Assembly: GCF_010692325.1 (NCBI RefSeq)
Contig: NZ_JAAHHW010000016.1
Span: 23,065 to 58,316, forward strand
From: Moorena sp. SIO3I8
GTDB lineage: Bacteria > Cyanobacteriota > Cyanobacteriia > Cyanobacteriales > Coleofasciculaceae
Direction of reading: 5' to 3'
Length of the DNA stretch: 35,252 nt
Position numbers and translations under genes: made by a program. Shown here one piece after another: positions 16,310 to 35,133 of this stretch. The notes beneath the pieces were generated by a model that made no database searches, was not told where the DNA came from, and saw only the letters and a list, made by a program, of their open reading frames with translations. How positions within the stretch are numbered: position 1 is the stretch's first letter; each line of letters opens with the position of its first letter.

Positions 16310-16633
16310 AGGATAAAGCATTTATAGCAATTCTCATAATCATGAGGTACAAAGTTCTGGCTTTTAGGGAGCAGGGAGCAGGGAGCAGGGAAGAGGGAAG
16401 TCGGAAGTCGGAAGTGGAGAAACAATGTGTACCTAACAGTTATGCAAACCGCCGTAAGCAACGCCATTAGCAATGCCGAAAATTTAGATGTACCTGACTA
16501 GACTAGGAAACGCTATCCTATCCGTCAGGTTTTGTAAATTTATGTTACAAAAAACCGCTCCCTGCATAAAAAGTACCAATCACTCAGAGTAATAATTAAA
16601 CCCACAAATATTTAGCCAATATCGCAGGAAACG
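16310..16633. other. Intergenic region after the response regulator
   Basis: No gene is supported. It contains a GGGAGCA heptamer array (about 16367-16390) followed by degenerate GGAAGTC repeats to about 16417, then unique sequence leading to the caspase-like stub. Confidence 0.5.
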
Positions 16634-16792
16634 ATGGTTAATAGGATTTATGCCTTGCTAGTGGGGATCGATCACTACCCACCGGATTCAGTTCTTAAAG
16701 TGGATCCATTACAAGGCTCTGCTAACGACATTACAGCAATATAAGAGTATCTTAACGAACGCGATGAGTTATTGCATAAACTAACCTACTGA
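16634..16792 (+). pseudogene. Caspase-like (peptidase C14) protein, N-terminal remnant with in-frame stop
   Basis: The first 36 codons read MVNRIYALLVGIDHYPPDS, then VLKVDPLQGSANDITAI. This is the typical opening of cyanobacterial caspase-like proteases: a VGI(D/N)xY strand followed by LxGxxNDI. A TAA then interrupts, and the same frame continues EYLNERDELLHKLTY before a TGA. The continuation fits the expected helix after NDITAI, so the first stop looks like a nonsense mutation and the rest of the gene, including the catalytic His and Cys, is missing. It lies 115 bases upstream of the GTPase operon, where an effector protease would be expected in related conflict systems. Confidence 0.7.
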
Positions 16793-16907
16793 AGTTGGTT
16801 GACAAAATTTAGGTGCAGCGATCGCAATTTTGATGTGATATTTCCCAGAGTAACTGGATAACACTCGGTAGCTAAACTTGGACTGTAATTAATTGGATAT
16901 ATAACCT

Positions 16908-19097
16908 ATGGACAGAACTGCTAAAATTGCCTATATTCTTGAAAAGCGCCAACCTTTGGCTAATAGAATTGAAGAGGTCGGAGTAAATTTAAACTCTCTT
17001 TATTCTAAACTTAGCTACCTCGACAATTATCGCCAACAGCTACTGGAAAAGGTTGATGAACCAAGCATAAATGGACGCTTGAAGGAAATCGATTTTTCCA
17101 AGATTCAGCAGGATATTGTATCTGAGTTACAAGCACTGGCTAAACTCAAAACTCGTTTCTCGCGAGATACTCTTAACATCGGTGTGATTGGACGAGCAAG
17201 ACAGGGTAAGAGTCGTTTATTACAAAGTTTAACTGGATTGACCGCAGCAGAAATTCCTGATGGCAGCGGTCAACACTGCACCGGGGTTCGCAGCAAGATT
17301 CACCATAACCCAAATGTTGAAACATATGGTGAGGTCTTGTTCTATACAGACCGTACTTTTATGGATGAGGTTATTGCTCCTTACTATGAGCAGTTAAAAT
17401 TGGGAACTAAACCAATTGATATCGATGATTTTGCCAGAAAAGACTTGCCTTCGCTACCGAAGGACCTTCAGGGTGCAGAGGTTAATGCCAAATATGAACA
17501 TCTACGCCAATATCATGAGAATGTAGATAAATATCGTCTCCTGTTGCAAGCCCCTTCCCCACGCCAGATCAAGAAAGAAGAGATTCGAGAATATGTAGCC
17601 CAAGACAACCTCCAAGGGGAGCGTATTTATTTCAACTATCTGGCAGTTCGAGAGGTCAGAATTATTTGCAACTTTCCCAAGGATGATCTTGGAAAGATTG
17701 CTTTAGTTGATATGCCGGGATTAGGAGATACAGGAATTGGTGATGAAAAGAGGATGGTAAAAACCATTGGTGAGGATATTGATGCGGTGCTATTTGTCCG
17801 GATGCCAAAGAGTACAGGGGACTTTTGGGGGGACGTTGATGTGCAACTGTACGACACAGCCTATAGAGCTTTGAATGATCTGCCCCTCCCACTATGGTCT
17901 TTTATGGTTCTCAACAAACTGAGTGATGAGAGTAACTTACAACTCTGCCAACAACTGAAAACCGACATTACCAACAAACACATCAATGTTGCAGACTGTG
18001 TCATAGCTAACTGCGCTGAAGCTCAAGAGGCTAACGATCAGGTTTTAGATCCCATTCTTAACTACTTAGCTAAAACAATTACTGACCTAGATCAGCAATA
18101 TGCCTCTGCTTGTCAGGATCGAATCAAGCAAATCCAAACATCAGTGGTGGCTGAGTTAGATAAAGCCCGTCAAGCATTAGGACAAGGAAAAATTTCAGGA
18201 GAGATGGTTGAATTCATCCCATTGTTTAATGGGCTTTGGGACGATTTGACCAGCGGTCTTGAAAAACTCCTTAAACAACTTAGTAACCAAATTAATGAGC
18301 AAGACCGAGACTTTAAACAATCTGTAGAAGAAGCTATCCAAAATTGCTATAACGATACCAAAATTCCCTCATCTTTGGAAGAAATTGAAAGAAGGCGTGA
18401 TAGTAAAGGGGGTTACCCAAGTGCCTATAGCGATTACCTCAATGAAATTCGCGCTCACCTATCACAACATTTTCTATCTCTAGATACTGGTTTAAAAAAA
18501 TCTTTGGATAGGGTAAAATATCTAGTAGTAGAGGTATTAATTGGAAAGGCACATTTAGGAGGAATCACAGAAGCACAAGGGTCTGATTTTCTTGGAGAGC
18601 TCGCTAACCTACTGCCTGATCAAATTTTAGACGGGCAACCCAGTAGACTAAAATTTGGATTCCAAATGCTCTCTGAATTTCAGCTTTCTTATCGAGGTAC
18701 TATCCAACACCGAATTCGCCAGTGTCTTAATGGATTAACTCCTGATAGGACTGATCTGCATCTGTCTGGGAAGTCTCCCAATGCAGAGCAAATCAAGAGC
18801 AATCTCGAATCACTTCATGCAGCAGCTGTTTTTCAATGCGAAACAGCCTTAGAAGATTTTCTTTGTGAACCTTCCCAAGCTGCTTTTGCCATAGTAGAAG
18901 AATTTCTTGACCGTGTACTCCGTGCTGAAGCAGTCAAGGATGAATGGCAAATTTTTCTTTACCAGGAACGCGCTTCTATCTGGCCTAAGGAATTTGAGTT
19001 ATTGGGTGAACGCTCGAGGGTACGCCAAGAGTGGCTAGAGGCAGTAGAACAGGCAACAAACCTAAATCAGCAAGAGTTGATGTCATTATTCAAGTAA
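16908..19097 (+). CDS. Dynamin-like large GTPase, first gene of a two-GTPase operon
   Basis: A 729-residue GTP-binding protein. An N-terminal helical stretch (about 1-88) precedes the G domain: P-loop GRARQGKS (95-102), DxxG in VDMPGLGD (268-271), and the guanine-specificity motif NKLSD (336-340). Between G1 and G3 a 140-residue insertion carries charged helices. The C-terminal half (about 395-729) is predominantly helical and resembles the stalk of dynamin-like proteins, without an obvious membrane-spanning segment. It opens an operon: 18 bases separate it from the next gene. Tandem distinct GTPases resemble the double-GTPase conflict systems described by comparative genomics. A membrane-remodelling or signalling role in defence is inferred, not shown. 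There is no strong ribosome binding site before the ATG. Confidence 0.82.
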   Translation: MDRTAKIAYILEKRQPLANRIEEVGVNLNSLYSKLSYLDNYRQQLLEKVDEPSINGRLKEIDFSKIQQDIVSELQALAKLKTRFSRDTLNIGVIGRARQGKSRLLQSLTGLTAAEIPDGSGQHCTGVRSKIHHNPNVETYGEVLFYTDRTFMDEVIAPYYEQLKLGTKPIDIDDFARKDLPSLPKDLQGAEVNAKYEHLRQYHENVDKYRLLLQAPSPRQIKKEEIREYVAQDNLQGERIYFNYLAVREVRIICNFPKDDLGKIALVDMPGLGDTGIGDEKRMVKTIGEDIDAVLFVRMPKSTGDFWGDVDVQLYDTAYRALNDLPLPLWSFMVLNKLSDESNLQLCQQLKTDITNKHINVADCVIANCAEAQEANDQVLDPILNYLAKTITDLDQQYASACQDRIKQIQTSVVAELDKARQALGQGKISGEMVEFIPLFNGLWDDLTSGLEKLLKQLSNQINEQDRDFKQSVEEAIQNCYNDTKIPSSLEEIERRRDSKGGYPSAYSDYLNEIRAHLSQHFLSLDTGLKKSLDRVKYLVVEVLIGKAHLGGITEAQGSDFLGELANLLPDQILDGQPSRLKFGFQMLSEFQLSYRGTIQHRIRQCLNGLTPDRTDLHLSGKSPNAEQIKSNLESLHAAAVFQCETALEDFLCEPSQAAFAIVEEFLDRVLRAEAVKDEWQIFLYQERASIWPKEFELLGERSRVRQEWLEAVEQATNLNQQELMSLFK

Positions 19098-19115
19098 CAC
19101 AACAAGGAGAATCAA

Positions 19116-20069
19116 ATGCCCAAAGAACTTAAAGTCACAATGCTAGGACATAGAGGTGTAGGCAAGACAAGTGTTTTAACTGCCATGTATGAGCAGTTCT
19201 CTGATACGTTTAAGGAAGCCGATTTGCAACTGACTCCCGATCCTGAAAGTTCCGCACTTCTCCAACAGCGTTTAGGAGAGCTAAAAGGTCTGCTGGATGA
19301 TTTTGAAGCGACGGGAGGATTGGAAGGAGATCAGAATCCCCAATCTTTTAAGTTTGGTCTAGGGAAGATTGGTGACAAACCATCTTTACAACTGACTTTT
19401 CAAGATTTTCCCGGTGGCTACCTGGATGATAAGGATGGGGAATTTGTCAAAAAGATAATGCATGAATGTGTTGCAGTTCTGATTGCTATTGACGCTCCTG
19501 CACTCATGGAAGCCAACGGCAAATGGCATCATTTGATGAACAGACCCAAGCAGATTTGCGATATTTTTAGCAGAAGCTATGGAGATTTAAAAGAACCTAG
19601 GCTCGTTATCCTTGTTCCTGTTCGTTGTGAAAAATATTTGCAAAATGAAGAAGATGCCACAAAGTTACTACACTGCATCAAAGATAAATATGCTGAATTA
19701 TTGAGGTTATTCAAGAGCGAAAATTTGCTGACTAAGATTGCGTGCGTAATTACACCTATTCAAACTGTAGGAACTGTGATATTCAATAATATTAGAGTAG
19801 TGAATCAAAGACCGCGTTTTTACTTTCGCAAAATTAGTCATGATGCTGGATATAGTCCCAAAGATAGCGATCAGCCGTTACGGTATCTTTTGAGTTTCCT
19901 ACTCAAACTTCATTACGATACGAAATGGGGCTGGTTTAATCCTATTCGTCATTGGCTAGGTTGGGATAAATTTCTTTTAAAAGCTGCGAAAAAGTCTGCT
20001 GATAAATGTAAATCAGCTCATGGTTTTGCTATTATACAAGGTAAAGATAAATTTTATATTAATAAATAG
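19116..20069 (+). CDS. Small GTPase of the double-GTPase (TRAFAC-like) type
   Basis: A 317-residue protein with an N-terminal G domain: P-loop GHRGVGKTS (11-19), DxxG in FQDFPGG (97-100), and VPVRCEKYL (167-175) in the position of the G4 motif, where NKxD is replaced by a (K/R)CEK form. A helical insertion between G1 and G3 (about 40-80) is charged. The C-terminal part (about 240-317) is basic and aromatic (WGWFNPIRHWLGWDKF), possibly a membrane- or partner-contact segment. AGGAG precedes the ATG by 8 bases. It is sandwiched between the dynamin-like gene (18-base gap) and the WD40 gene (9-base gap), so co-expression is nearly certain. Likely related to the DO-GTPase families; exact function unknown. 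Confidence 0.8.
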   Translation: MPKELKVTMLGHRGVGKTSVLTAMYEQFSDTFKEADLQLTPDPESSALLQQRLGELKGLLDDFEATGGLEGDQNPQSFKFGLGKIGDKPSLQLTFQDFPGGYLDDKDGEFVKKIMHECVAVLIAIDAPALMEANGKWHHLMNRPKQICDIFSRSYGDLKEPRLVILVPVRCEKYLQNEEDATKLLHCIKDKYAELLRLFKSENLLTKIACVITPIQTVGTVIFNNIRVVNQRPRFYFRKISHDAGYSPKDSDQPLRYLLSFLLKLHYDTKWGWFNPIRHWLGWDKFLLKAAKKSADKCKSAHGFAIIQGKDKFYINK

Positions 20070-20078
20070 GAGTTAGCC

Positions 20079-21305
20079 ATGAAACTTTATGTTCAAAGTG
20101 CTGGTTTGTCTCAAGATCAGGATTACTTTTGGCAAGAAATTACAAAGCATGAACAAAAGCCAATAGATGAACCAGATTTGGTTAAAAAATATAAACTATT
20201 GCTTGAAACCCAAGCGTATTCGATTTTTATAGGGCGTGAGAGTGGTAACTTAATTTTGCTTGTCACAGGCATGAAAGCAAGCAAACGCAAAGATTATCGA
20301 GGTCGCACTATACGCAACTCTATAGCGTTGATTGCTCAAGATAATGAACAGAATGAGCAACAAATACGAGGAATCGCTGTGCTTGCATTAGAGGGAAAAT
20401 TACAAAATGACATTGACAGTGCTATTAAGGAAGGAGGGGAATACGGATTTGAAGTTTCTTATGAACAAATCGAGCATGCCATCAAAGCATCGCTTCAAAC
20501 CAAGAACTCCACTGGAACGAAGCATCTGATGATAGGGAAAAACTCAGACGATAATAGAAAAATTATTGCTGATGAACTTAAAGAATACCGTCTACCTCAG
20601 AAAAGCAATGCTTCGGATTCAGAAGCATTAGTAGTTGTCACTGGAATTAAGAAACAAGACGATATCAAAAAAGCAGGAGTTTGGCGGGGATTATCGAATC
20701 TTGGAGATAACGAAGACCTTTCTCCCTATGAGCCACCGAATTCAGATCAAAATTTTTTTCCAAGCTTTAACGAAACTACAAAATCAAATCAGCAATTGGG
20801 AATTAGATTGATAATCTCCCTTGGCGTGATTGGGCTAATTGCTCTATGGTTTTTGGGGTTTTTTGGGCATCCTCCTATAGGACAAAAGCCAACCACTGTT
20901 GTTTTAGCTGATATTAGCCGAGGTGGTGAGTATTTTGTAACTGCTGATCCTCATGGTAAAGTGCTAGTGCAGGATACCCAAGACAAAACTAATAATACCA
21001 TTAAAAATAAGGCTGCGGTCAAATCAGTTGCCCTTAGCTCTGATGGAAGTTATGTCGTTACTGGCGATGAGACTGGAAAGGTGCAATTGTGGGATGTAAC
21101 TAACAAAAAAAACATTGAGCTAAGACGTAATGCCAATTTAAAACATGAAAAAGCAGTTTTGTCACTGGCGATCAATTCTAATTCTTCTAGGGATAAAGTA
21201 AAAATAGTTAGTGGTGGTGCTGATGGGCAAGTGCTGTTGTGGAACGTAAATGTTAATGTTAACCAAGGTAAGGGCGAAGCTAACATCGAACGTTATATTC
21301 CATGA
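20079..21305 (+). CDS. Membrane-anchored protein with short C-terminal WD40 segment, third gene of the GTPase operon
   Basis: A 408-residue protein in three parts. Residues 1-200 form a soluble alpha/beta domain that I do not recognise (MKLYVQSAGLSQDQDYFW; SIFIGRESGNLILLVTGMKA). A single membrane segment lies at about 241-262, so the N-terminal domain and WD40 part are on opposite sides of a membrane. Residues 272-400 hold three WD40 repeats: FVTADPHGKVLVQD, VVTGDETGKVQLWD and IVSGGADGQVLLWN. Three blades cannot close a propeller, so the protein either pairs with another chain or has lost its end; a 42-bp repeat array starts 35 bases after the stop. AGGAG lies before the ATG. It probably acts as sensor or adaptor for the two upstream GTPases (inference). 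Confidence 0.75.
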   Translation: MKLYVQSAGLSQDQDYFWQEITKHEQKPIDEPDLVKKYKLLLETQAYSIFIGRESGNLILLVTGMKASKRKDYRGRTIRNSIALIAQDNEQNEQQIRGIAVLALEGKLQNDIDSAIKEGGEYGFEVSYEQIEHAIKASLQTKNSTGTKHLMIGKNSDDNRKIIADELKEYRLPQKSNASDSEALVVVTGIKKQDDIKKAGVWRGLSNLGDNEDLSPYEPPNSDQNFFPSFNETTKSNQQLGIRLIISLGVIGLIALWFLGFFGHPPIGQKPTTVVLADISRGGEYFVTADPHGKVLVQDTQDKTNNTIKNKAAVKSVALSSDGSYVVTGDETGKVQLWDVTNKKNIELRRNANLKHEKAVLSLAINSNSSRDKVKIVSGGADGQVLLWNVNVNVNQGKGEANIERYIP

Positions 21306-21861
21306 TTAAGTAATCAGGTTGGGTCCCACCGTCACAAATGGGCAAGATGCCCATTCCACAGGTGCGACCCAAGGGCGGAACGGGCAAGATGCCCATTCCA
21401 CAGGTGCGACCCAAGGGCGGAACGGGCAAGATGCCCATTCCACAGGTGCGACCCAAGGGCGGAACGGGCAAGATGCCCATTCCACAAAACTTTTAAAATC
21501 ATTCCATTATTAGGCAACGCCCATTACTAAGGCCGAAACATAAATGTCGATATTGTGAATTGATGTCTATGCCAGGTCAGGCCATATGGGCAGGTCGTGC
21601 ATACCAAAATATCTAGGGGTCGTATGGGGTAAAAATCCTAGGTACGGTATGACACCAGAGGTGCCCCAGATAATACTCGGTATCGACTCTAACTCTATTA
21701 AATCATGTTCCCTTAGGCTAAAGAGCAAGCTAGATCACACTTTAGTCAGTATTAACTTATGTAAAGTTACGTTAAGATACGTTGCAGTTTCTTATCAAGC
21801 TTGTCAAAAGTTTGTTATCGTTCATTATCGGCATACATAAATTTAACAAAGAAAAAGAGAT
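21306..21861. other. Intergenic region after the GTPase operon
   Basis: It holds the 42-bp array (21340-21486), then about 375 bases of unique, A/T-rich sequence that should contain the promoter of the small membrane peptide gene. No other gene is supported. Confidence 0.55.
21340..21486. repeat. 42-bp tandem array, 3.5 copies
   Basis: Copies start at 21340, 21382, 21424 and 21466 (the last is 21 bases). Each begins with the inverted repeat GGGCAAGATGCCC, continues ATTCCACA and ends GGTGCGACCCAAGGGCGGAA plus C. The copies are identical, so the array is recent. 42 is a multiple of 3, which explains the open frames on both strands. The second half matches part of the hairpin at 4690-4740. Confidence 0.93.
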
Positions 21862-22079: not shown

Positions 22080-22250
22080 ACTCCCCGGTCTAAAGACGCG
22101 GGGATTCTTCGCTCAACGACTCGGCTTGCTGATCCTGGCCGGAACCAAGAACAGTAGAGGCCAAATCTCCCGAAGCGTTTGGATCGAGGATCCAGGTTCC
22201 GGTGTGCCCCACCGTACCCAAGGCTCGTTTTAGGATGTTGATTGCAGCGT
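22080..22250 (-). ncRNA. Predicted omegaRNA overlapping the 3' end of tnpB
   Basis: TnpB nucleases use a guide RNA made from the 3' end of tnpB and the element's right end. Here the last ~150 bases of tnpB run into a stable hairpin (CCCCG...CGGGG) ending GTGTCAA, after which a guide would start. The first guide bases would come from the adjacent palindrome. Position and extent are inferred from family knowledge, not shown by the sequence. Confidence 0.35.
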
Positions 22251-23304
22251 TGTGATCACGATCTAATTTACAGCCACATTTACAGACGTGAGTCCTAGTG
22301 GATAGTGACTTCTTGACCACTTCACCGCATTCAGAACAGTTTTGGCTTGTATAGGCAGGATTAACCGCAATTGTGACCCGACCAAACTTAGTGCCAAAAT
22401 GCTCCAACCATTTCCTGAATTGATACCAACCTGCATCATTAATAGACTTAGCCAGACAGTGATTTTTAACTAAATTTTTTACTCTTAAATCTTCATAGGC
22501 GACCAGGTCGTTAGACCGGATTACGCAGCGCGCCAGTCTCTTGGCGTGCTCTTCACGTTGCCTACTTATTTTAAGGTGCTGTCTACCTAATCTATTGATC
22601 GCTTTCTTGCGGTTAGCAGAGCCTTTCTTTCTCCGGGAAACCCGGCGTTGATAAAACTTTAATCGCTTTTCCCCAACTCTATAAAACCTGGGGTTGGGTT
22701 CAGACTTACCATCAGAATCAGTGTAGAACTCTTTTAGTCCTACATCTAGTCCAACAGTGTTTTTAGATGGTTCTAATTCTTCAGTCACATCAACTGAGAC
22801 GCAGAATTGAACGTAGTAACCATCTGCTCTTTTGACTATACGGACTCGTTTTATCTGCTTCTTATCAAAGCGCCACAAGTCCCAGGTTCCCTTGAGCTTT
22901 AGCTTTCCGATTCCTTTTTTATCACTGAATGTGATTGACTTCTTATCAGGGGACAACTTCCATCCCGACTGTTTGTACTCAACCGATCTACAGTGCTTTT
23001 GAAAGCGTGGGAAACCTTTCTTTCCAGGTACTTTTTTCTTGCAGTTGTCAAAGAACCGAATAATTGATGACCAGGCTCTTTCAGCGCTAGACTGACGAGC
23101 GGTAGAGTTTAATTCACTAGCGAAAGGGAACTTTTTAGCCAGCACTGCACTATACTTGTTGAGGTCAAACTTGTTAACCCCTTTATTGTCCATCCAATAC
23201 CTAAGACAGCTATTCCGGATGAATTTAACCGTCCGAATGGCTTCATCAATAGCCGAGTACTGGTTCTTTTTTCCTTTAACTTTAAACTCTAAAACAATCA
23301 TCAC
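22090..23304 (-). CDS. tnpB: TnpB RNA-guided nuclease (IS200/IS605 group), apparently intact
   Basis: A 404-residue relative of Cas12. It has an N-terminal helix-turn-helix/OB part, the OrfB central domain (about 150-300), and a RuvC-like nuclease split into VGLDVGLKEF (catalytic Asp), AYEDLRVKNL (Glu) and KLDRDHNAAINIL (final Asp). All three acidic residues are present. A zinc ribbon lies between the last two (CSECGEVV...CKCGCKL). A ~45-residue tail (GTVGHTGTWILDPNASGDLAS...) is typical of cyanobacterial members. TnpB cuts DNA matching its guide at the emptied donor site and so keeps the element in place. No frameshift or stop is seen, so it could be active. Start ATG 23304. Confidence 0.92.
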   Translation of the reverse strand: MMIVLEFKVKGKKNQYSAIDEAIRTVKFIRNSCLRYWMDNKGVNKFDLNKYSAVLAKKFPFASELNSTARQSSAERAWSSIIRFFDNCKKKVPGKKGFPRFQKHCRSVEYKQSGWKLSPDKKSITFSDKKGIGKLKLKGTWDLWRFDKKQIKRVRIVKRADGYYVQFCVSVDVTEELEPSKNTVGLDVGLKEFYTDSDGKSEPNPRFYRVGEKRLKFYQRRVSRRKKGSANRKKAINRLGRQHLKISRQREEHAKRLARCVIRSNDLVAYEDLRVKNLVKNHCLAKSINDAGWYQFRKWLEHFGTKFGRVTIAVNPAYTSQNCSECGEVVKKSLSTRTHVCKCGCKLDRDHNAAINILKRALGTVGHTGTWILDPNASGDLASTVLGSGQDQQAESLSEESPRL

Positions 23305-25968: not shown

Positions 25969-28900
25969 GTGCAGTGGCAAAACATGACTAATCGGCAAAG
26001 TAAGTCCTCAACCAGAGGGCTAGGGATATTGCCCTTAACTGAGGGAGCCATAACCCTAATCGGATGGGTGGTTATTGCTTTTTCTGGGAACTATGCCCTA
26101 GCCCAGATTACCCCTGATCAAACCTTGGGTAATGAATCTTCAGTGGTAACACCAAATCTAACTATCACCGGAGAGCCCGGGGACTTGATTGAAGGGGGAG
26201 CAGCGCGAGGTAGTAACCTGTTCCACAGCTTTCAAGATTTTAATGTTGGTCAGCTACAGCGGGTTTACTTTGCCAATCCAGTCGGAATCGATAACATTCT
26301 CTCTCGGGTGACCGGGAGTAATATCTCCAACATTCTAGGAACTCTTGGTGTCGATGGTGGAGCGAATCTGTTTTTACTCAATCCCAATGGCATCGTGTTT
26401 GGCCAGAATGCCAGGTTAGATGTGGCAGGTTCCTTTGTCGCCAGTACAGCCAATAGTTTAGTGTTCAACAACGGTACAGAATTCAGTGCCACCAATCCAC
26501 AAGCCCCCCCTTTATTGAGTATTAATATTACTCCCGGATTGCAGTATGGCTTGAATCACCCCAAACCCAGCCAAATCACGAACGCTGGTTATTTAGTAGT
26601 CGGGCAAGACCTCACCCTAGCTGCTGGTCAGCTTGACTTACAAGGTCAACTAATTGCTGGGGGAGATGTGACACTCCATGGAGAAGATACAGTTCAAATA
26701 CGCGATAGTATCGGGCGACCATTTATTGCCGCTGCTGGCGGTAAGTTATTGATTCAGGGCAATCAAGGGGTGGATATATTTGCCTTGAACCATCCAGACA
26801 GTGGTCTGTTTTCCGGTGGGGATCTGGTTTTGCGATCGCAAAATACTGTCGCAGGTGATGCCCACTATTGGACTGGTGGCAGTTTCCGGATTGAACAGCT
26901 CGATGGCAGTCTCGGAGATTTATTTAGTCCCGATGACCCGATTATTCGCTCAGTTGGGGATGTTAGTTTCAACAGCTATCTAGGCACCTCCCTACATATT
27001 GTGGCAGGGGGAGCGGTAGAGATCGGCTCTGTGATCATTACAGGCTCAGAAACAGGTACAGAAGGAATAGACTTTATTTCCGAAGCCATTACCTTATCTA
27101 ATGGCACAGTAGTGAATATTAACGGTCAGACTGAACCGACTCTTGATATTCGTGCTGGAGTAGATCCGAATCAAGTTGATCCCCGTGGACTTACAGGCAA
27201 GCAATTCCGTGACATTTTCAATGGGAATATCTTTTTTGGCAGACCCACTATTACAGATAGTGCTACGAGTGCAGATATTAAAATCGGCACTATCGCTTTT
27301 ACTAATCTCAATGATCTGTTGGCAGGAACCGTTTTACTAACCAATCAGTACAAGCCTAATCCCTTACTAGCAGGAGATATTGAAGTTTCAGCTACTCTAG
27401 ATTTTTTAGCGCCAAATCTAGCCATTCAGAACGGCGAAGTATCCAAGGGAGGATCAGTTACTATCGATTCTCGCGGTAGCATTACTCTCAACGGTATAGT
27501 AAATACCATTGCTATTCCAAATAATGATGCGTCTAACCCTTTCTCTGGCAATGGCGGTGATGTTACGTTTTTGGCCAATGAGAACATCACCCTTAATCCA
27601 GGTTCTTTCATTGCTTCTGCTGGAATAGAGGGAGGTAAGATCACCCTCAACAGCGGTAGCAACTTTTTGCTGGATGACGCTGGTGTTGTTACTGTTACAA
27701 CTGGGGCAGGTGTAGGAGGAAATTTAATTGTCAATGCCCCTGAGTCAGTGACATTAATTAATAGAGAAGGGTCAGGCTTCAAAAATTTAGGGAATTTGGT
27801 CAACGAGTTTACCAATTCAGACTTGGTAGAACAGCTCCTAGGTTTCGAGGGGTCTGGCTTGGCAACGGTTACAATTGGACCAGGGAATTCTGGGGACTTA
27901 ACTATTGACACCAGAACTTTGAGTATCCAAAACCAAGCATCACAGAATCAAGAATCACCTAGTTATGCTGGAGCTACTACTATCGCTTTAGGTGGTAGTC
28001 GTGGCAAGAGTGGAAATTTAACTGTTAACGCTGAGTCGGTAGAAATTGTTGGCAACGAAACGGGTCCATTTACCCCTACTCCTAACGAACGGTTAGCCTT
28101 GGCTATCAGAGATATTCCCACGGGGTTGACGACTGCTACTGTAGGTAGTGGTCAGGGAGGGGACTTAACCATTAATACCCAACGTTTAACAATTCAGAAT
28201 GGAGCTGGAGTAACCACAGGAACTGTTGCCAGAAGCCTAGAAAACCCAGGGGATGGGGGAAATTTAACCATAAATGCTACTGAGTCAGTGACATTGTCTG
28301 GTAAGGCGGCTTTGGCTACCGGTACCTTGAACTCATCTCAGGCAGGTAAGTTGGAGGTCAAAACACCCACATTGACTCTCGGGGATGGAGCGGTGATTGC
28401 TTCTGATACCATTGGTTCAGGGAATGCTGGGGACTTAACGATTAACACCGAGCAACTGTTAGTACGTGATGGCTCCAGAATTGGCGCAGCAACAGGAAAT
28501 AGTGGTACGGGAGCCAATATAACCATTGCTTCGGACTTAGTCGAGTTAGTTGGTACTGCTGTCGATGATCAGAATACTGTAGTTCCTAGTGGTATATTCG
28601 CTAACTCTCAATTCATTGACATTGAAAATTTTACAAATGAACTTGGCGATGCTGGGAATATTAACATTGATACAGAAAATTTGATTGTTGGGGATGGGGC
28701 AGTTGTATTGAGTTCTACCGAAGGTCAAGGCATCGGTGGAACGATAACTATTGATGTTAATACTCTCGAAATTACTACTGGTGGACAACTTCGCACCACT
28801 GCCTTTGGGGAAGGTGGGGCTGGTGACATTACCCTGAATATCGATAACAGGGTGCTGATCGCAAATCTCAATAGCGGACTGTTAGCAGAGACTGAAGGCG

Positions 28901-31900
28901 CTGGGGCTGGTGGAACGATCACGATTAATACTCCAGAGCTGACACTCCAGGATCAAGGACAGATTTCTGCATTTACCTCTGGTACAGGAACTTCTGGAAG
29001 CATTGTTGTTGAGAATGCTGACTCTGTCGAGCTTGCCGACAACAGCTCAATTTCAACGGAGGTAAGGGCTGGTGCAAAGGTAAACCCTAGCCCAGGGGAG
29101 GAAGTGGGTAAGATTGATATTAAAACGCGATCGCTTACTTTAAACAATGACTCTCAAATAACTGCCAGCACATCTGGGCTTGGGAATGCAGGTAGTATCT
29201 TTATAAAAGATGCTCAACAGGTTAACCTTGATCTCAATAGTTCGATATCCACAGCAGTAAACCCTGGTGCAGTTGGCAATGGTGGGGATGTCGATATTGA
29301 AACCAAGTCTCTATCTCTAGATAACACCTCGGAAATTGAAGCAAGTACTGCCGGTACCGGAGATGCAGGTAGTATCACAATCCCAGATGCCCAGGAGGTT
29401 AACCTTGATCGGAATAGTTCGATATCCACAGCAGTAAATACTGGTGCAGTTGCCCAAAAAGACAGCAATATTGCGATTAAAACGCGATCGCTTACTTTAA
29501 ACAATGACTCTGACATAACTGCCAGCACCTCTGGGATAGGGAATGCCGGTAGTATCACCATACAAGAGGCTCAACAGGTTGACCTGAATCGGAATAGTTC
29601 CATATCGACAGCAGTAAACTTTGGTGCAGAGGGCAATGGTGGGAATGTCGAGATTGAAACCAAGTCTCTATCCCTGGACAATCAGTCGCAAATTGAAGCG
29701 AGTACTGCCGGTAACGGAAATGCCGGTAGTATCAAAATCCCAGACGCAGAGGAAGTTTCCCTTAATCGGAATAGTTCGATCTCTACAGAGGTGAAGAAAG
29801 GTGCAATTGTCCAAAAAGACAACAATATTGATATTGACAGCAATATTGATATTAAAACGCGATCGCTTACTTTAAACAATGACTCTGACATAACTGCCAG
29901 CACCTCTGGGATAGGGAATGCCGGTAGTATCACCATACAAGAGGCTCAACAGGTTGACCTGAATCGGAATAGTTCCATATCCACAGCAGTAAATACTGGA
30001 GCAGAGGGCAATGGTGGGAATGTCGAGATTGAAACCAAGTCTCTATCCCTGGACAATCAGTCGCAAATTGAAGCGAGTACTGCCGGTAACGGAAATGCAG
30101 GTAGTATCACCATCCCAGATGCCGAGGAGGTTAACCTTAATCGGAATAGTTCGATATCTACAGAGATTAAGGAAGGTGCAGTTGCCGAAAAAGCTAGCAA
30201 TATTGATCTAAAAACGCGATCGCTTACTTTAACCAATGACTCTGACATAACTGCCAGCACCTCTGGGATAGGGAATGCCGGTAGTATCACCATACAAGAG
30301 GCTCAACAGGTTAACCTTGATCGGAACAGTTCCATATCCACAGCAGTCAATACTGGAGCAGTTGGCAATGGTGGGAATGTCGAGATTGAAACCAAGTCTT
30401 TATCCCTGGACAATCAGTCGCAAATTGAAGCGAGTACTGCCGGTACCGGAGATGCCGGTAGTATCACCATCCCAGACGCAGAGGAGGTTAACCTTAATCG
30501 GAAGAGTTCGATATCCACAGCAGTAAACCCTGGTGCAGTTGGCGATGGTGGGAATATTGATCTAAAAACGCGGACGCTAAAATTAAATCAATCTCAAATA
30601 ACTGCTGCTAGTACTGATGCTCAGGGCGATGCCGGTCAAGTCCAAGTGCGGGATGCTCAACAGGTTGACCTTAATCGGAATAGTTCGATATCTACAGAGA
30701 TTAAGGAAGGTGCAGTTGCCGAAAAAGCTAGCAATATTGATCTAAAAACGCGATCGCTTACCTTAAACAATGACTCTAACATAACTGCCAGCACCTCTGG
30801 GATAGGGGATGCCGGTAGTATCACAATACAAGAGGCTGAACAGGTTAACCTTGATCGGAAGAGTTCGATATCCACAGCAGTAAACCCTGGTGCAGTTGGT
30901 AATGGTGGGGATATTGATCTAAAAACGCGGACGCTAAAATTAAATCAATCTCAAATAACTGCTAGTACTGATGCTCAGGGCGATGCTGGTAGTATCTTCA
31001 TACAAGAGGCTCAACAGGTTAACCTTAATCGGAATAGTTCCATATCCACAGCAGTAAACTCTGGAGCAGATGCTGAAAAAGCCGGTAATATTGATCTAAA
31101 AACGCGATCGCTTACCTTAACTAATGACTCTCAAATAACTGCCAGCACTTCTGGGAAAGGGGATGCCGGTCAAATCAAAATACAAGAGGCTCAACAGGTT
31201 GACCTTAATCGGAATAGTTCCATATCCACAGCAGTAAACCCTGGTGCAGTTGGTAATGGTGGGGATATTGATCTAAAAACGCGATCGCTTACCTTAACCA
31301 ATGAATCTGAAATAACTTCCAGCACTGCTGGTGATGGAGATGCCGGTAACATCACCCTTCAGGCTAAGCAAGTGACCATCCAGGGAGACTCACAGGTGTC
31401 AGCCACTACAACTTCTGGTGGTAAGGGTGGCAACATTGAAATAATTGAGGCCAATCGGTTTGAGGCTACCGACGGTGGCAACGTCAGAACCACCACCGAA
31501 GGTACTAACCAGGCTGGTGATATTACTCTGGAAGTACGAGATGATATTACTTTAGCTGGAACTGGAAGTGGGCTGTTTGCCAACACCACGTCCGGTTCTA
31601 GCGGCGATGGTGGCAATATTTTCGTTGACCCCAGAACTGTCACCATTCGGGATGGAGCCAAGATAGCTGTAGATAGCCAAGGCACCGGAAAAGGGGGCAA
31701 TATTGAGCTTCAGGCAGGCACACTCACCCTTAATAATCAAGCAGAGCTATCCGCAGAAACGGCTAGCAACCAAGGGGGCAATATTACCTTAACCATTGAC
31801 GAGTTGTTGTTCTTGCGACGGGAGAGTAAAATATCCACTACCGCAGGTACTGCTCAAGCTGGTGGAAACGGCGGCAATATTACGATTAATGCTCCCTTTA

Positions 31901-32508
31901 TCATAGGCATTCGTCAAGAAAATAGCGACATTACTGCTAATGCTTTTGAAGGCAATGGCGGCAATATCAACATCACCACCCAAGGTATCATTGGGCTAGA
32001 GTTCCGAGAAAACCTCACTCCCCTCAGTGACATTACCGCTAGCTCTGAGTTTGGTGTAGATGGTACCGTCAACATCAATGCACCTCAAATTGACCCCAGC
32101 CGAGGGTTGTCGGAATTGCCAAGCGATGTCATTGATGTCTCTCAACTAATTGAAAAAAACCTCTGTGCTGCCGGTGAGGGCAGTGAATTTATTGCCACAG
32201 GTCGTGGTGGCTTACCGATTTCTCCTAACGAAACCCTGAACCCCAATGCTACATGGGACGATTGGCGTATCACTGAGCAACCTCAAACTAGGATCAGAAA
32301 ACGTCGGTCAAGGTCAAGGCAGCATCAACTACAGATTAATCAACCACAGACCAATAACCCTAAACCTAAACAAATTGTAGAAGCCCAAGGCTGGGTTATC
32401 GGTGCCAACGGGGAGGTAATTCTCACCGCCCATCCAGTCATAGTGACTCCGAAGGGTACGTGGTTACATCAAGTAGATTGTCCGATGCTTCACCAAACCT
32501 TTAAGTAG
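25969..32508 (+). CDS. Giant two-partner-secretion adhesin (filamentous haemagglutinin N-terminal domain)
   Basis: A 2179-residue secreted beta-helix protein. A signal region (about 20-47, ending YALAQ) leads into the TPS/haemagglutination domain (about 48-190: NLFHSFQDFNVGQLQRVYF, NLFLLNPNGIVFGQNARLDV), which directs export by a TpsB outer-membrane partner not found in this window. The long body is beta-helical repeats rich in G/N/T/S. From about residue 1020 to 1790 it becomes a regular alternation of ~59-residue units: one with KTRSLTLNNDSxITASTSG, one with ETKSLSLDNxSxIEASTAG. The end has a cysteine (NLCAAGEGSEF) and GRGGLPISPNETL..W, typical of cyanobacterial members. The frame opens at GTG, but ATG 25984 (MTNRQSKSS) is the more likely start. 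Confidence 0.9.
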   Translation: MQWQNMTNRQSKSSTRGLGILPLTEGAITLIGWVVIAFSGNYALAQITPDQTLGNESSVVTPNLTITGEPGDLIEGGAARGSNLFHSFQDFNVGQLQRVYFANPVGIDNILSRVTGSNISNILGTLGVDGGANLFLLNPNGIVFGQNARLDVAGSFVASTANSLVFNNGTEFSATNPQAPPLLSINITPGLQYGLNHPKPSQITNAGYLVVGQDLTLAAGQLDLQGQLIAGGDVTLHGEDTVQIRDSIGRPFIAAAGGKLLIQGNQGVDIFALNHPDSGLFSGGDLVLRSQNTVAGDAHYWTGGSFRIEQLDGSLGDLFSPDDPIIRSVGDVSFNSYLGTSLHIVAGGAVEIGSVIITGSETGTEGIDFISEAITLSNGTVVNINGQTEPTLDIRAGVDPNQVDPRGLTGKQFRDIFNGNIFFGRPTITDSATSADIKIGTIAFTNLNDLLAGTVLLTNQYKPNPLLAGDIEVSATLDFLAPNLAIQNGEVSKGGSVTIDSRGSITLNGIVNTIAIPNNDASNPFSGNGGDVTFLANENITLNPGSFIASAGIEGGKITLNSGSNFLLDDAGVVTVTTGAGVGGNLIVNAPESVTLINREGSGFKNLGNLVNEFTNSDLVEQLLGFEGSGLATVTIGPGNSGDLTIDTRTLSIQNQASQNQESPSYAGATTIALGGSRGKSGNLTVNAESVEIVGNETGPFTPTPNERLALAIRDIPTGLTTATVGSGQGGDLTINTQRLTIQNGAGVTTGTVARSLENPGDGGNLTINATESVTLSGKAALATGTLNSSQAGKLEVKTPTLTLGDGAVIASDTIGSGNAGDLTINTEQLLVRDGSRIGAATGNSGTGANITIASDLVELVGTAVDDQNTVVPSGIFANSQFIDIENFTNELGDAGNINIDTENLIVGDGAVVLSSTEGQGIGGTITIDVNTLEITTGGQLRTTAFGEGGAGDITLNIDNRVLIANLNSGLLAETEGAGAGGTITINTPELTLQDQGQISAFTSGTGTSGSIVVENADSVELADNSSISTEVRAGAKVNPSPGEEVGKIDIKTRSLTLNNDSQITASTSGLGNAGSIFIKDAQQVNLDLNSSISTAVNPGAVGNGGDVDIETKSLSLDNTSEIEASTAGTGDAGSITIPDAQEVNLDRNSSISTAVNTGAVAQKDSNIAIKTRSLTLNNDSDITASTSGIGNAGSITIQEAQQVDLNRNSSISTAVNFGAEGNGGNVEIETKSLSLDNQSQIEASTAGNGNAGSIKIPDAEEVSLNRNSSISTEVKKGAIVQKDNNIDIDSNIDIKTRSLTLNNDSDITASTSGIGNAGSITIQEAQQVDLNRNSSISTAVNTGAEGNGGNVEIETKSLSLDNQSQIEASTAGNGNAGSITIPDAEEVNLNRNSSISTEIKEGAVAEKASNIDLKTRSLTLTNDSDITASTSGIGNAGSITIQEAQQVNLDRNSSISTAVNTGAVGNGGNVEIETKSLSLDNQSQIEASTAGTGDAGSITIPDAEEVNLNRKSSISTAVNPGAVGDGGNIDLKTRTLKLNQSQITAASTDAQGDAGQVQVRDAQQVDLNRNSSISTEIKEGAVAEKASNIDLKTRSLTLNNDSNITASTSGIGDAGSITIQEAEQVNLDRKSSISTAVNPGAVGNGGDIDLKTRTLKLNQSQITASTDAQGDAGSIFIQEAQQVNLNRNSSISTAVNSGADAEKAGNIDLKTRSLTLTNDSQITASTSGKGDAGQIKIQEAQQVDLNRNSSISTAVNPGAVGNGGDIDLKTRSLTLTNESEITSSTAGDGDAGNITLQAKQVTIQGDSQVSATTTSGGKGGNIEIIEANRFEATDGGNVRTTTEGTNQAGDITLEVRDDITLAGTGSGLFANTTSGSSGDGGNIFVDPRTVTIRDGAKIAVDSQGTGKGGNIELQAGTLTLNNQAELSAETASNQGGNITLTIDELLFLRRESKISTTAGTAQAGGNGGNITINAPFIIGIRQENSDITANAFEGNGGNINITTQGIIGLEFRENLTPLSDITASSEFGVDGTVNINAPQIDPSRGLSELPSDVIDVSQLIEKNLCAAGEGSEFIATGRGGLPISPNETLNPNATWDDWRITEQPQTRIRKRRSRSRQHQLQINQPQTNNPKPKQIVEAQGWVIGANGEVILTAHPVIVTPKGTWLHQVDCPMLHQTFK
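29041..31340 (+). repeat. In-gene repeats of the adhesin, HIP1 in one repeat type
   Basis: About thirteen units of ~177 bp. HIP1 octamers sit at the same codons (Lys-Thr-Arg-Ser-Leu) at 29127, 29484, 29859, 30216, 30750, 31104 and 31281. The spacings are 357, 375, 357, 534, 354 and 177 bases, close to 2, 2, 2, 3, 2 and 1 units. The 375 spacing exceeds 357 by 18 bases, matching an in-frame duplication of six residues near 29822-29855. Confidence 0.88.
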
Positions 32509-32874
32509 CTGCGGTGAGTTTTCTGGGGAAGCCAGAGGATAGATCCTCCTCCCGTCCCCCTTAACAAGGGGGAAGCCAGAGGATAGATCCTCCTCCCGTC
32601 CCTCTTAACAAGATAGATCCCCCTCCCGTCCCCCTTAACAAGGGGGAAGCCAGAGGATAGATCCTCCTCCCGTCCCTCTTAACAAGATAGATCCCCCTCC
32701 CGTCCCCCTTAACAAGATAGATCCCCCTCCCGTCCCCCTTAACAAGGGGGAAGCTGTGCGATCGCTTTTCCCTGCTCCCTGCTCCCTGCTCCCTGCTCCC
32801 TGTTCCCTGTTCCCTGTTCCCTGTTCCCTAAAAACCCGGGACTGTGTACCTAACCGAATTGAGAACTGCCATAA
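32509..32874. repeat. Tandem repeats between the adhesin and CHAT genes
   Basis: 32524-32751 holds about six irregular copies of a unit built from GATAGATCC(C/T)CCTCCCGTCC plus CCCTTAACAAG, some extended by GGGGAAGCCAGAG. A heptamer array CCCTGCT/CCCTGTT (about eight copies) follows at about 32769-32829. There is no room for a gene; the promoter of the CHAT gene must be within or just after the array. Confidence 0.85.
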
Positions 32875-35133
32875 ATGAAGCGCCTAATTCAGTTTATTTT
32901 AATGACCTTGTTGGGGCTAATCTTAAGCCGTGGTGTACACGCACTACCCTTCTATGCTGCCCATCAGCACTCAGTCATCAGCACTCAGCCATCAGCAGTC
33001 AGCCATCAGCACTCAACTATCAGCACTGACCTATTAGCACTCAATAACAGTGAGCAGAACGCAACAGTAAGCAAGACACAACAGCAAGCAGGAAGCACGA
33101 AGCACTACCTGCTGCTGGAAAAAGGCAAACAATATTACGATGCTGGACAATATTCTGATGCTGCACGAGTATTGCAGCAGGCGGCACAAGCTTATCAAGC
33201 CACAGGAGATATCCTCAACCAAGCCCAAGCCCTGTGTTTGCTGTCCTTAGTCACTCAGCAACTTGGGGAATGGGATAAAGCCCAAGCAGCCATTGACTCC
33301 AGTTTGTCGTTGCTAGAAACTGTATCCAGGGGCGGTGAGGGAGTATTGGCTAAAGTGTTGAACACTCAAGGGCGTTTGCAATTGGTACAGGGAAATGCTG
33401 AAGCTGCCCTGAACACCTGGCAAAATGCTGAAGCACTGTATGCTAAAGCCAATGATCGGGTTGGTGTGCTTGGTAGCCAGATTAATCAAGCCCAAGCGAT
33501 GCAGTCTTTGGGACTTTACCGTCGAGCCAAGAAGCTATTGACTCAGGTAAGACAAACCCTGCTGGCACAACCGGATTCTCCTCTAAAAGCTATTGGCTTA
33601 CACAATCTTGGTAATGTGTTTCGACAAGCAGGGGATTTAAAGCAATCTAAACAGACCTTAACCAAAAGTTGGACAGTCGCACAACGAATAAAATCTCCAG
33701 AATCCCAGAGTCAAGTGTTACTGAGTTTAGGTAATACTGAGCGAGCCTTAGCCACAAGAGCAAAAGACTTGAATAATAACAAAGCATTCCAGCAGCATAT
33801 CCAAGAGGCGATAACTCACTATCAACAAGCAGCAGCAACCACCACCTCACCTATCACCCAAATTCAAGCACAATTGAATCAGCTAAGTTTACTCATCGAA
33901 ACAGACCAGGAGAAATCTGTTCAAGCGTTGTTGCCACAAATCCAGACATTGCTAACTAAATTACCATCCAGTAGAGCATCAGTTTACGCCCACGTAAATT
34001 TCGCTCAAAGTCTGATCAAGATCAGAAATCGAAAATTGCGTACGCAAATTACCAAACCAATTCCCACACCAATTCCCAATTCCCAAGACATTGCTCAACT
34101 ACTCAACACAGCCATTGAGCAAGCTAAAACCCTAGAAGACAAACGAGCAGAATCCTATGCCCTGGGCACCCTTGGTAACTGGTTTGAACAAACTAAAGAT
34201 TCGTCAAATGCCATAACCTTTACCAAGTCAGCGCTTCTGATTGCCCAAGGGATTAATGCACCAGATATTGCTTATCAGTGGCAGTGGCAAATGGGACGTA
34301 TACTTAAGGCTGAAGCCGAACAAGCCACTAAAACCAGAAATGGTGATAGTGAAACAGTAAGCGACCTGATCCAGAATGCGATCGCTTATTATACCCAAGC
34401 CTCTAATACCTTAACGAATTTACGGAGTGATTTAGTTACTCTCAATCCTGACATCCAGTTTTCCTTCCGAGAACAAGTAGAACCGGTTTATCGACAGTTA
34501 GTTGATTTACTATTGCGTTCTCCTCAACCAAGTAACGATAATCTCAAACAAGCCCGTGATGCTATTGAAGCACTCCAGCTTGCTGAAATCGACAACTTCT
34601 TTCGAGACGCCTGCGCCAAGCCAGAAAAGGTCAACATTGATAATTTAGACCCTACAGCAGCGGTCATTTACCCGATTATCTTAAAAGACGGCTTAGCGGT
34701 AATCCTCAAATTGCCTGAACCAGATAACTTGCGTTACTATATCCATCATAACATATCAGAAGCTCAAGTAGACGAAGCGGTCAAAAAGTTCAGGAATTTC
34801 CTAAGAAGACGTAGCACTAGTATTAGCAAAGTCAAAAAAGAATCCCAACAAATTTATGACTGGCTAATCAGACCCTTTGAAGAAGAACTAGAGAGTAACC
34901 CTGAGGCAGACCAAAGCCCAATAAAAACCCTAGTATTTGTTCTAGATGGGTCATTACGAAATGTTCCTGTAGCAGCCCTTTATGATGGCAAACAGTATTT
35001 AATAGAACGGTATGCTGTAGCTGTGACCCCTGGCTTACAGTTAGTGGACCCCAAACCATTGCCACGGCAACAGCTAACAGCCCTAATTGCTGGAGCTACT
35101 AACGCTCCCAGCTTTAAAAAAGAAGCAGGGTAA
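32875..35133 (+). CDS. Exported TPR-CHAT protein, truncated in the CHAT domain
   Basis: A 752-residue protein with a signal peptide (MKRLIQFILMTLLGLILSRG). A low-complexity stretch rich in His, Ser and Gln follows (about 29-53). TPR-like helices occupy about 70-560 (LLEKGKQYYDAGQYSDAARVL and others). The CHAT (caspase-HetF-associated) peptidase domain begins near 600; its FVLDGSLRNVPVAALYDGKQ strand-turn is clear. The frame stops at LIAGATNAPSFKKEAG, about 150 residues before the expected catalytic His (HxxTHG) and Cys (SACxT). The other two frames after the A6 run at about 35116 also stop quickly and do not restore the domain. Such proteins commonly accompany TPS adhesins in cyanobacteria. 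Probably a catalytically dead or broken gene. Confidence 0.82.
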   Translation: MKRLIQFILMTLLGLILSRGVHALPFYAAHQHSVISTQPSAVSHQHSTISTDLLALNNSEQNATVSKTQQQAGSTKHYLLLEKGKQYYDAGQYSDAARVLQQAAQAYQATGDILNQAQALCLLSLVTQQLGEWDKAQAAIDSSLSLLETVSRGGEGVLAKVLNTQGRLQLVQGNAEAALNTWQNAEALYAKANDRVGVLGSQINQAQAMQSLGLYRRAKKLLTQVRQTLLAQPDSPLKAIGLHNLGNVFRQAGDLKQSKQTLTKSWTVAQRIKSPESQSQVLLSLGNTERALATRAKDLNNNKAFQQHIQEAITHYQQAAATTTSPITQIQAQLNQLSLLIETDQEKSVQALLPQIQTLLTKLPSSRASVYAHVNFAQSLIKIRNRKLRTQITKPIPTPIPNSQDIAQLLNTAIEQAKTLEDKRAESYALGTLGNWFEQTKDSSNAITFTKSALLIAQGINAPDIAYQWQWQMGRILKAEAEQATKTRNGDSETVSDLIQNAIAYYTQASNTLTNLRSDLVTLNPDIQFSFREQVEPVYRQLVDLLLRSPQPSNDNLKQARDAIEALQLAEIDNFFRDACAKPEKVNIDNLDPTAAVIYPIILKDGLAVILKLPEPDNLRYYIHHNISEAQVDEAVKKFRNFLRRRSTSISKVKKESQQIYDWLIRPFEEELESNPEADQSPIKTLVFVLDGSLRNVPVAALYDGKQYLIERYAVAVTPGLQLVDPKPLPRQQLTALIAGATNAPSFKKEAG

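Follow-up and report, generated by a model that had tools for sequence, protein, structure and literature searches.

A conserved cassette of a dynamin-like GTPase, a DO-GTPase-family GTPase and a predicted membrane-anchored partner in cyanobacteria, a possible membrane-response or defence device

Introduction

The described bacterial conflict systems closest to the locus reported here consist of a DO-GTPase and GAP1 (Kaur et al. 2020, PMC7159879). That study gives a conserved Walker B glutamate as a DO-GTPase feature and calls DO-GTPase systems nearly completely absent in cyanobacteria, and a second source (PMC11237479) contains the prediction that DO-GTPases take part in membrane-related stress. 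As for dynamins, PMC5827413 gives an extended P-loop motif for nearly all cyanobacterial members and describes an 'HSR1 clade' whose members have an HSR1 GTPase encoded downstream. B. subtilis DynA is stated to slow lysis upon phage infection (PMC8844932). Here we analyze three adjacent genes, which we call D1, G2 and W3 (together, the trio), in a 35,252-nucleotide stretch of the Moorena sp. SIO3I8 genome (contig NZ_JAAHHW010000016.1, positions 23,065 to 58,316; hereafter the window). A preliminary description of this DNA had read the genes as a member or variant of GTPase/caspase/WD40 conflict systems.

Results

We searched 386 genomes of the phylum and found that the D1 query matched 30 of them, the G2 query 25, all belonging to the 30 D1 genomes, and the W3 N-domain query 24. 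The sole G2 genome with no W3 match was G091, and there a profile found W3 in two pieces; other open reading frames (ORFs) lie between the two (L051 4756-7417). D1 occurred without G2 in five genomes: it was a fragment at a contig end in G360, the contig stopped after it in G305, it was broken in G346, and it was followed by a LysM gene in G042 and by a DO-GTPase1 gene in G320. D1 genes with neither a recognisable G2 nor W3 were also seen, for example in Lyngbya (L034). ORF calling at 36 D1-centred loci (L032 to L067, 4.7 to 20 kb, some sharing one genome) placed all three ORFs in order at 26, which is beyond chance. The preliminary description had proposed a neighbourhood search to see whether the three genes are conserved together, and this count indicates that they are: D1-G2-W3 is a conserved cassette with the layout of an operon. 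The gaps of 18 bases (D1-G2) and 9 bases (G2-W3) in the window agree with those first described, and the medians across loci were 20.5 and 14.5 bases, with one outlier (L036) in which 4,578 bases separate D1 and G2. Mean identity was 34 to 49% among 21 loci with gene order kept, and the pairwise distances of D1, G2 and the W3 N-domain correlated across these loci, as expected of a cassette moving together; shared ancestry alone could suffice for this correlation. We also found a complete trio in Nonomuraea and a divergent one on a Streptomyces plasmid. The window's own genome carries a second, broken D1-like gene (G000:C46:29379-30488, L066), 46% identical over query residues 128-502.

Table 1. 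Coordinates in the window of the trio, its parts and the surrounding block
Feature	Position	Strand	Basis
D1, dynamin-superfamily GTPase by profile, 729 amino acids	16908..19097	+	ORF; Dynamin_N profile, motifs, hydropathy
G2, DO-GTPase-family switch GTPase by profile, 317 amino acids	19116..20069	+	ORF; PF19993 profile, motifs
W3, predicted membrane-anchored partner, 408 amino acids	20079..21305	+	ORF; N-domain alignment, hydropathy
W3 N-domain, residues 1-218	20079..20732	+	alignment, Pfam, predicted model
W3 predicted single membrane helix, residues 244-262	20808..20864	+	hydropathy, Lys+Arg counts
WD40-like blades of W3, past the membrane helix	20916..21278	+	PF00400
Caspase (Peptidase_C14) N-terminal remnant, judged outside the system	16634..16741	+	36 codons, then in-frame stop
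Accessory block, trio plus remnant	16323..21693	.	absent at same site in same-genus genome G386

Each of the two GTPases has a P-loop and a DxPG motif, in line with the preliminary description: GRARQGKS (residues 95-102) and DMPG (G3, residues 268-271) in D1, and GHRGVGKT (residues 11-18) and DFPG (G3, residues 97-100) in G2. Its statement that the first GTPase keeps NKxD did not hold, since D1 reads NKLSD and the Asn alone is invariant across 28 relatives. The RCEK-type G4 ascribed to the second GTPase was borne out. The G4 region of G2 is PVRCEKY in the window, with an unusual [KR]CE at residues 170-172, and takes the form P[VI][KR]CE among G2 relatives, with the Cys and Glu invariant in 28/28.

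The dynamin and DO-GTPase matches that had been expected of the trio were both obtained. Dynamin_N matched D1 of the window just under the cut-off of 27 (26.1 bits, E 1e-5) and was found in all 28 D1 relatives (E up to 1, best 1.6e-11), so that D1 is, by profile, a dynamin-superfamily GTPase. D1 also gave a weak LeoBC match, and hydropathy found no transmembrane segment in it. These matches are what it shares with Nostoc BDLP, LeoABC and B. subtilis DynA; it differs from bacterial dynamin-like proteins in its pairing with a DO-GTPase and W3 and in the P-loop, where the NALL-type extension GxxxxGK[ST]x[LI]NAL[LI] of typical cyanobacterial dynamins was present in 0/28 D1 proteins. The HSR1 clade of dynamins may be a partial earlier sighting of D1-G2.

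G2 belongs, on profile evidence, to the DO-GTPase family. DO-GTPase2 (PF19993) matched 28/28 G2 relatives (E up to 1, best 8.4e-13) and DO-GTPase1 (PF19975) 11 of them, and G2 of the window scored 20.7 bits against PF19993, below the cut-off of 27. A whole-genome search placed DO-GTPase2 above cut-off in 33/386 genomes. Judged by position, these matches include the trio's own G2 for at least 15 of the trio genomes, which number 25; G2 of the window is not one of them. The residue following DxxG in the 28 relatives was G in 16, E in 8, D in 3 and R in 1, if this position is assumed to be equivalent to that of the Walker B glutamate. Neighbouring pairs of DO-GTPase2 genes also occur outside the trio in cyanobacteria (G091:C2:118-2656 and G111:C70:21673-24098).

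The third protein had been described as an unknown N-domain, one membrane segment and WD40 repeats, and the window's W3 fits this. It has a single hydrophobic segment by hydropathy (Table 1), and PF00400 matched two stretches of WD40 blades (E 1.4e-11). Among 26 W3 proteins, a membrane helix was predicted after the N-domain in 21. Counted over 15 residues, Lys and Arg were more frequent on the N-domain side of the helix than on the far side in 13 of these, equal in 6 and fewer in 2, and this excess speaks for an N-domain in the cytoplasm. Of the 21 proteins, five stop within 10 residues of the helix, like tail-anchored proteins. The part past the helix is variable: PF00400 was found in 3/26 proteins, the window's included, and was absent from most, with coiled-coil-like stretches (by eye) or short tails elsewhere. 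WD40 blades are therefore not a defining part of W3, and the proposal that they act as the sensor is not favoured.

No Pfam match above cut-off was obtained for the W3 N-domain, and a PDB sequence search with it gave no useful match. W18, P32, L60, R76, W202 and R203 were invariant in 26 N-domains. When we compared its predicted structure, which was of moderate confidence, a longin chain ranked first with a weak structural score (one model, one second-look alignment), suggesting from this one predicted model that the domain may be longin-like. Longin domains are the usual partners of small GTPases. W3 would thus resemble longin/roadblock regulators (Rag-GATOR1/FLCN, TRAPP, Asgard roadblock-longin, MglA-MglB) in its top-ranked longin chain and in being encoded beside a small GTPase. 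It differs from them in the weak score, the lack of a sequence match and its predicted membrane anchor, and the adjoining GTPase is DO-GTPase-like, not Ras, Rag or MglA.

In the same-genus genome G386, 328 unrelated bases replace the block that holds the trio (Table 1), and because of this empty site we regard the trio as an accessory insert. It was present in 1/4 genomes of the genus, and at the same site G387 holds about 7 kb of other genes, which by eye include two transporters, an HNH-type gene and a methyltransferase. The place after the response-regulator gene (window 16322-21694; L141, L142) thus varies in the genus, being nearly empty in G386 and occupied by the trio in the window and by other genes in G387. 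D1 or the trio was also found on plasmids and in a second phylum, Actinomycetota. On the Nostoc plasmid pNsp_h, a D1 homologue lies beside opposite-strand DO-GTPase-like ORFs, an 812-amino-acid protein and a protein annotated vWA; three ORFs of this plasmid (L134 1-6689) have DO-GTPase matches, one above cut-off. The flanks were not conserved, and neighbour families recurred at most 3 times among 25 loci on the upstream side or 24 on the downstream side. Near the trio in the window lies a gene of IS605 OrfB/TnpB type that has a Cas12f1-like TNB domain (22090-23304, minus strand). Directly downstream of W3 (21330-21490), a unit of about 42 bases is seen by eye to be repeated in tandem with near identity.

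The caspase-like N-terminus noted just upstream of the trio was found again. Its 36 residues before the in-frame stop gave a Peptidase_C14 match below cut-off (E 0.089), and in a tblastn search of 11 loci this stretch matched a caspase locus from its own genome (E 1.3e-4). That genome has 17 Peptidase_C14 matches. Among 24 trio relatives we found 112 Peptidase_C14 matches and none near the trio, where several contigs are short and remnants of the window's size would be undetectable; the nearest match on a trio contig was about 57 kb off (G074). The search for the trio beside intact caspase genes, put forward in the preliminary description, thus gave 0/112. The closest relative, L032, has a D1 that is 86% identical to the window's; we found no similarity to the remnant stretch there, and the DNA before its D1 resembles the window no further upstream than about 16859. 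On these comparisons the remnant seems an unrelated scrap inside the inserted block, and the idea of a protease lost or acting in trans is not supported. CHAT is a caspase-like domain, and one observation, a TPR-CHAT gene directly upstream of the Nonomuraea trio, counts in favour of the caspase idea. The end of this gene, whose CHAT match has E 2.2e-52, coincides with the start of D1, and a second CHAT-like stretch lies upstream of it (L128 4262-5200). Elsewhere in the window (25969-35133), a TPS-secretion/haemagglutinin protein of 2179 amino acids comes before a 752-amino-acid TPR-CHAT protein, whose CHAT match ends at profile position 86 of 289; both have counterparts in G386.

Other partner genes were found next to the trio, which has an exchangeable context of AAA_35, vWA and TPR-CHAT. 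An AAA_35 ATPase is fused to the D1 N-terminus in L036 and L056. In L036 the gene directly upstream of the fused D1 also encodes AAA_35, and the L056 gene at this place clusters with it. Downstream of W3, L035 carries a vWA gene (E 1.4e-6); the gene found there in L056 is of AAA type, with scores below cut-offs, and that in L063 is AAA_35 and also matches vWA weakly. Among the best 25 of 175 Pfam families in 103 neighbouring ORFs, Uma2 occurred 6 times, AAA_35 4 times and the others at most 3 times, and the neighbours include ordinary metabolic genes, e.g. RuvA and Mur ligases. PADLOC on the same ORFs (best 25 of 90 families) gave PDC-S03 5 times, mad2 3 times, and PD-T4-6, mad6 and MkoA twice each. 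The neighbourhood gave no clear defence-island signal.

Discussion

The trio shares with the systems of Kaur et al. a DO-GTPase-family switch, a constant downstream partner gene, membrane helices and exchangeable extra modules. It differs from them in that the partner is W3 and not GAP1, in its constant dynamin-like member ('dynamin' is absent from the main text of PMC7159879), and in that most trio loci found are cyanobacterial, where that study calls such systems nearly completely absent. GAP1-M (PF20014) matched 0/25 trio genomes, with positive-control matches in C. glutamicum and with GAP1-N and GAP1-C not searched genome-wide, and 6 W3 N-terminal stretches compared with Pfam matched none of the GAP1 models. 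GASH, FNIII and EAD-coupled effectors were not among the best 25 of 175 Pfam families of the neighbouring ORFs. We do not file the trio in the published DO-GTPase class because GAP1 is missing as far as tested and a dynamin and W3 are added; its mode of action may be similar, with a switch and a partner. No prior description of the trio was found among the matches listed in titles and abstract openings of the open-licence literature, the supplement of PMC5827413 not being covered, and the trio seems to be a mobile device for membrane response or defence that has not been described before.

Our preferred reading, to which we give about an even chance, is a self-contained membrane GTPase relay that moves horizontally and can exchange its partners. 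W3 would sit at the membrane through its one helix, with the N-domain in the cytoplasm, and the putatively longin-like N-domain would partner G2, recruiting it and setting or reading its nucleotide state. Activated G2 would then control the assembly of D1 at that membrane, and D1 would be either the mechanical output (membrane sealing, remodelling or permeabilising) or a scaffold, triggering the partner attached to it. The exchangeable partners would be AAA_35 (STAND-type) ATPases fused or adjacent to D1, vWA proteins and, in one actinobacterium, TPR-CHAT. We infer that the most likely role is in defence or membrane stress; that a dynamin can affect phage infection has a functional precedent in DynA. 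More tentatively, and with the odds against it, the trio could be a bacterial three-part relay with the logic of eukaryotic Rab/Rag control, in which a membrane-anchored longin-type regulator, a switch GTPase and a dynamin mechanoenzyme are joined in one mobile operon as an innate immune or membrane-repair device of Cyanobacteria and Actinomycetota with plug-in STAND, vWA or CHAT partners.

A role in membrane housekeeping, where the trio would remodel a membrane of the normally growing cell (thylakoid, septal or plasma) and have no part in conflict, seems unlikely to us. Streptomyces DynA/DynB are division proteins, and Nostoc BDLP is likewise named as a housekeeping model. Cyanobacterial dynamin-like proteins are common and discussed for membrane dynamics (PMC5827413), no attached effector is universal, and the metabolic genes among the neighbours also suit such a role. 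It fits poorly, however, with the patchy occurrence of D1 (30/386 genomes, 1/4 in the genus), the empty site, the plasmids and the second phylum, and with D1 proteins that do not have the P-loop motif of nearly all cyanobacterial dynamins. The reading of the preliminary description, a member or degenerate variant of published GTPase/caspase/WD40 conflict systems, is less probable still. Its two different GTPases, conserved operon, family matches and exchangeable context stand. The relatedness of G2 to DO-GTPases, the caspase start upstream, the Peptidase_C14 proteins of the genome that could act in trans and the TPR-CHAT gene adjoining the Nonomuraea trio all speak for it, and the trio shares WD40 blades and a nearby caspase fragment with cyanobacterial WD40-caspase proteins. 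Yet neither WD40 nor caspase is conserved with the trio: the 24 relatives had no caspase match near it, the remnant was unseen in L032, and blades were found in 3/26 W3 proteins. The result for GAP1-M also stands against this reading. We consider it very improbable that the trio is a maintenance function of a mobile element or plasmid, or cargo kept by drift after transfer, with no defined host role. Plasmid-borne copies, the other genes at the same site in G387 and the TnpB-type gene next door would agree with it, but the gene order is kept at low identity and in Nonomuraea and the GTPase motifs are invariant, which together argue for selection for function.

If the relay reading is correct, DO-GTPase systems would gain a mechanoenzyme of dynamin type and a membrane-anchored partner domain not yet catalogued, in a phylum said to be almost devoid of such systems. 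Further members could be sought with the W3 profile and with the CE pair, which is invariant in the G4 region of G2. It would also become testable whether bacteria use small-GTPase control of a membrane dynamin, and whether they do so for phage defence or for membrane repair.

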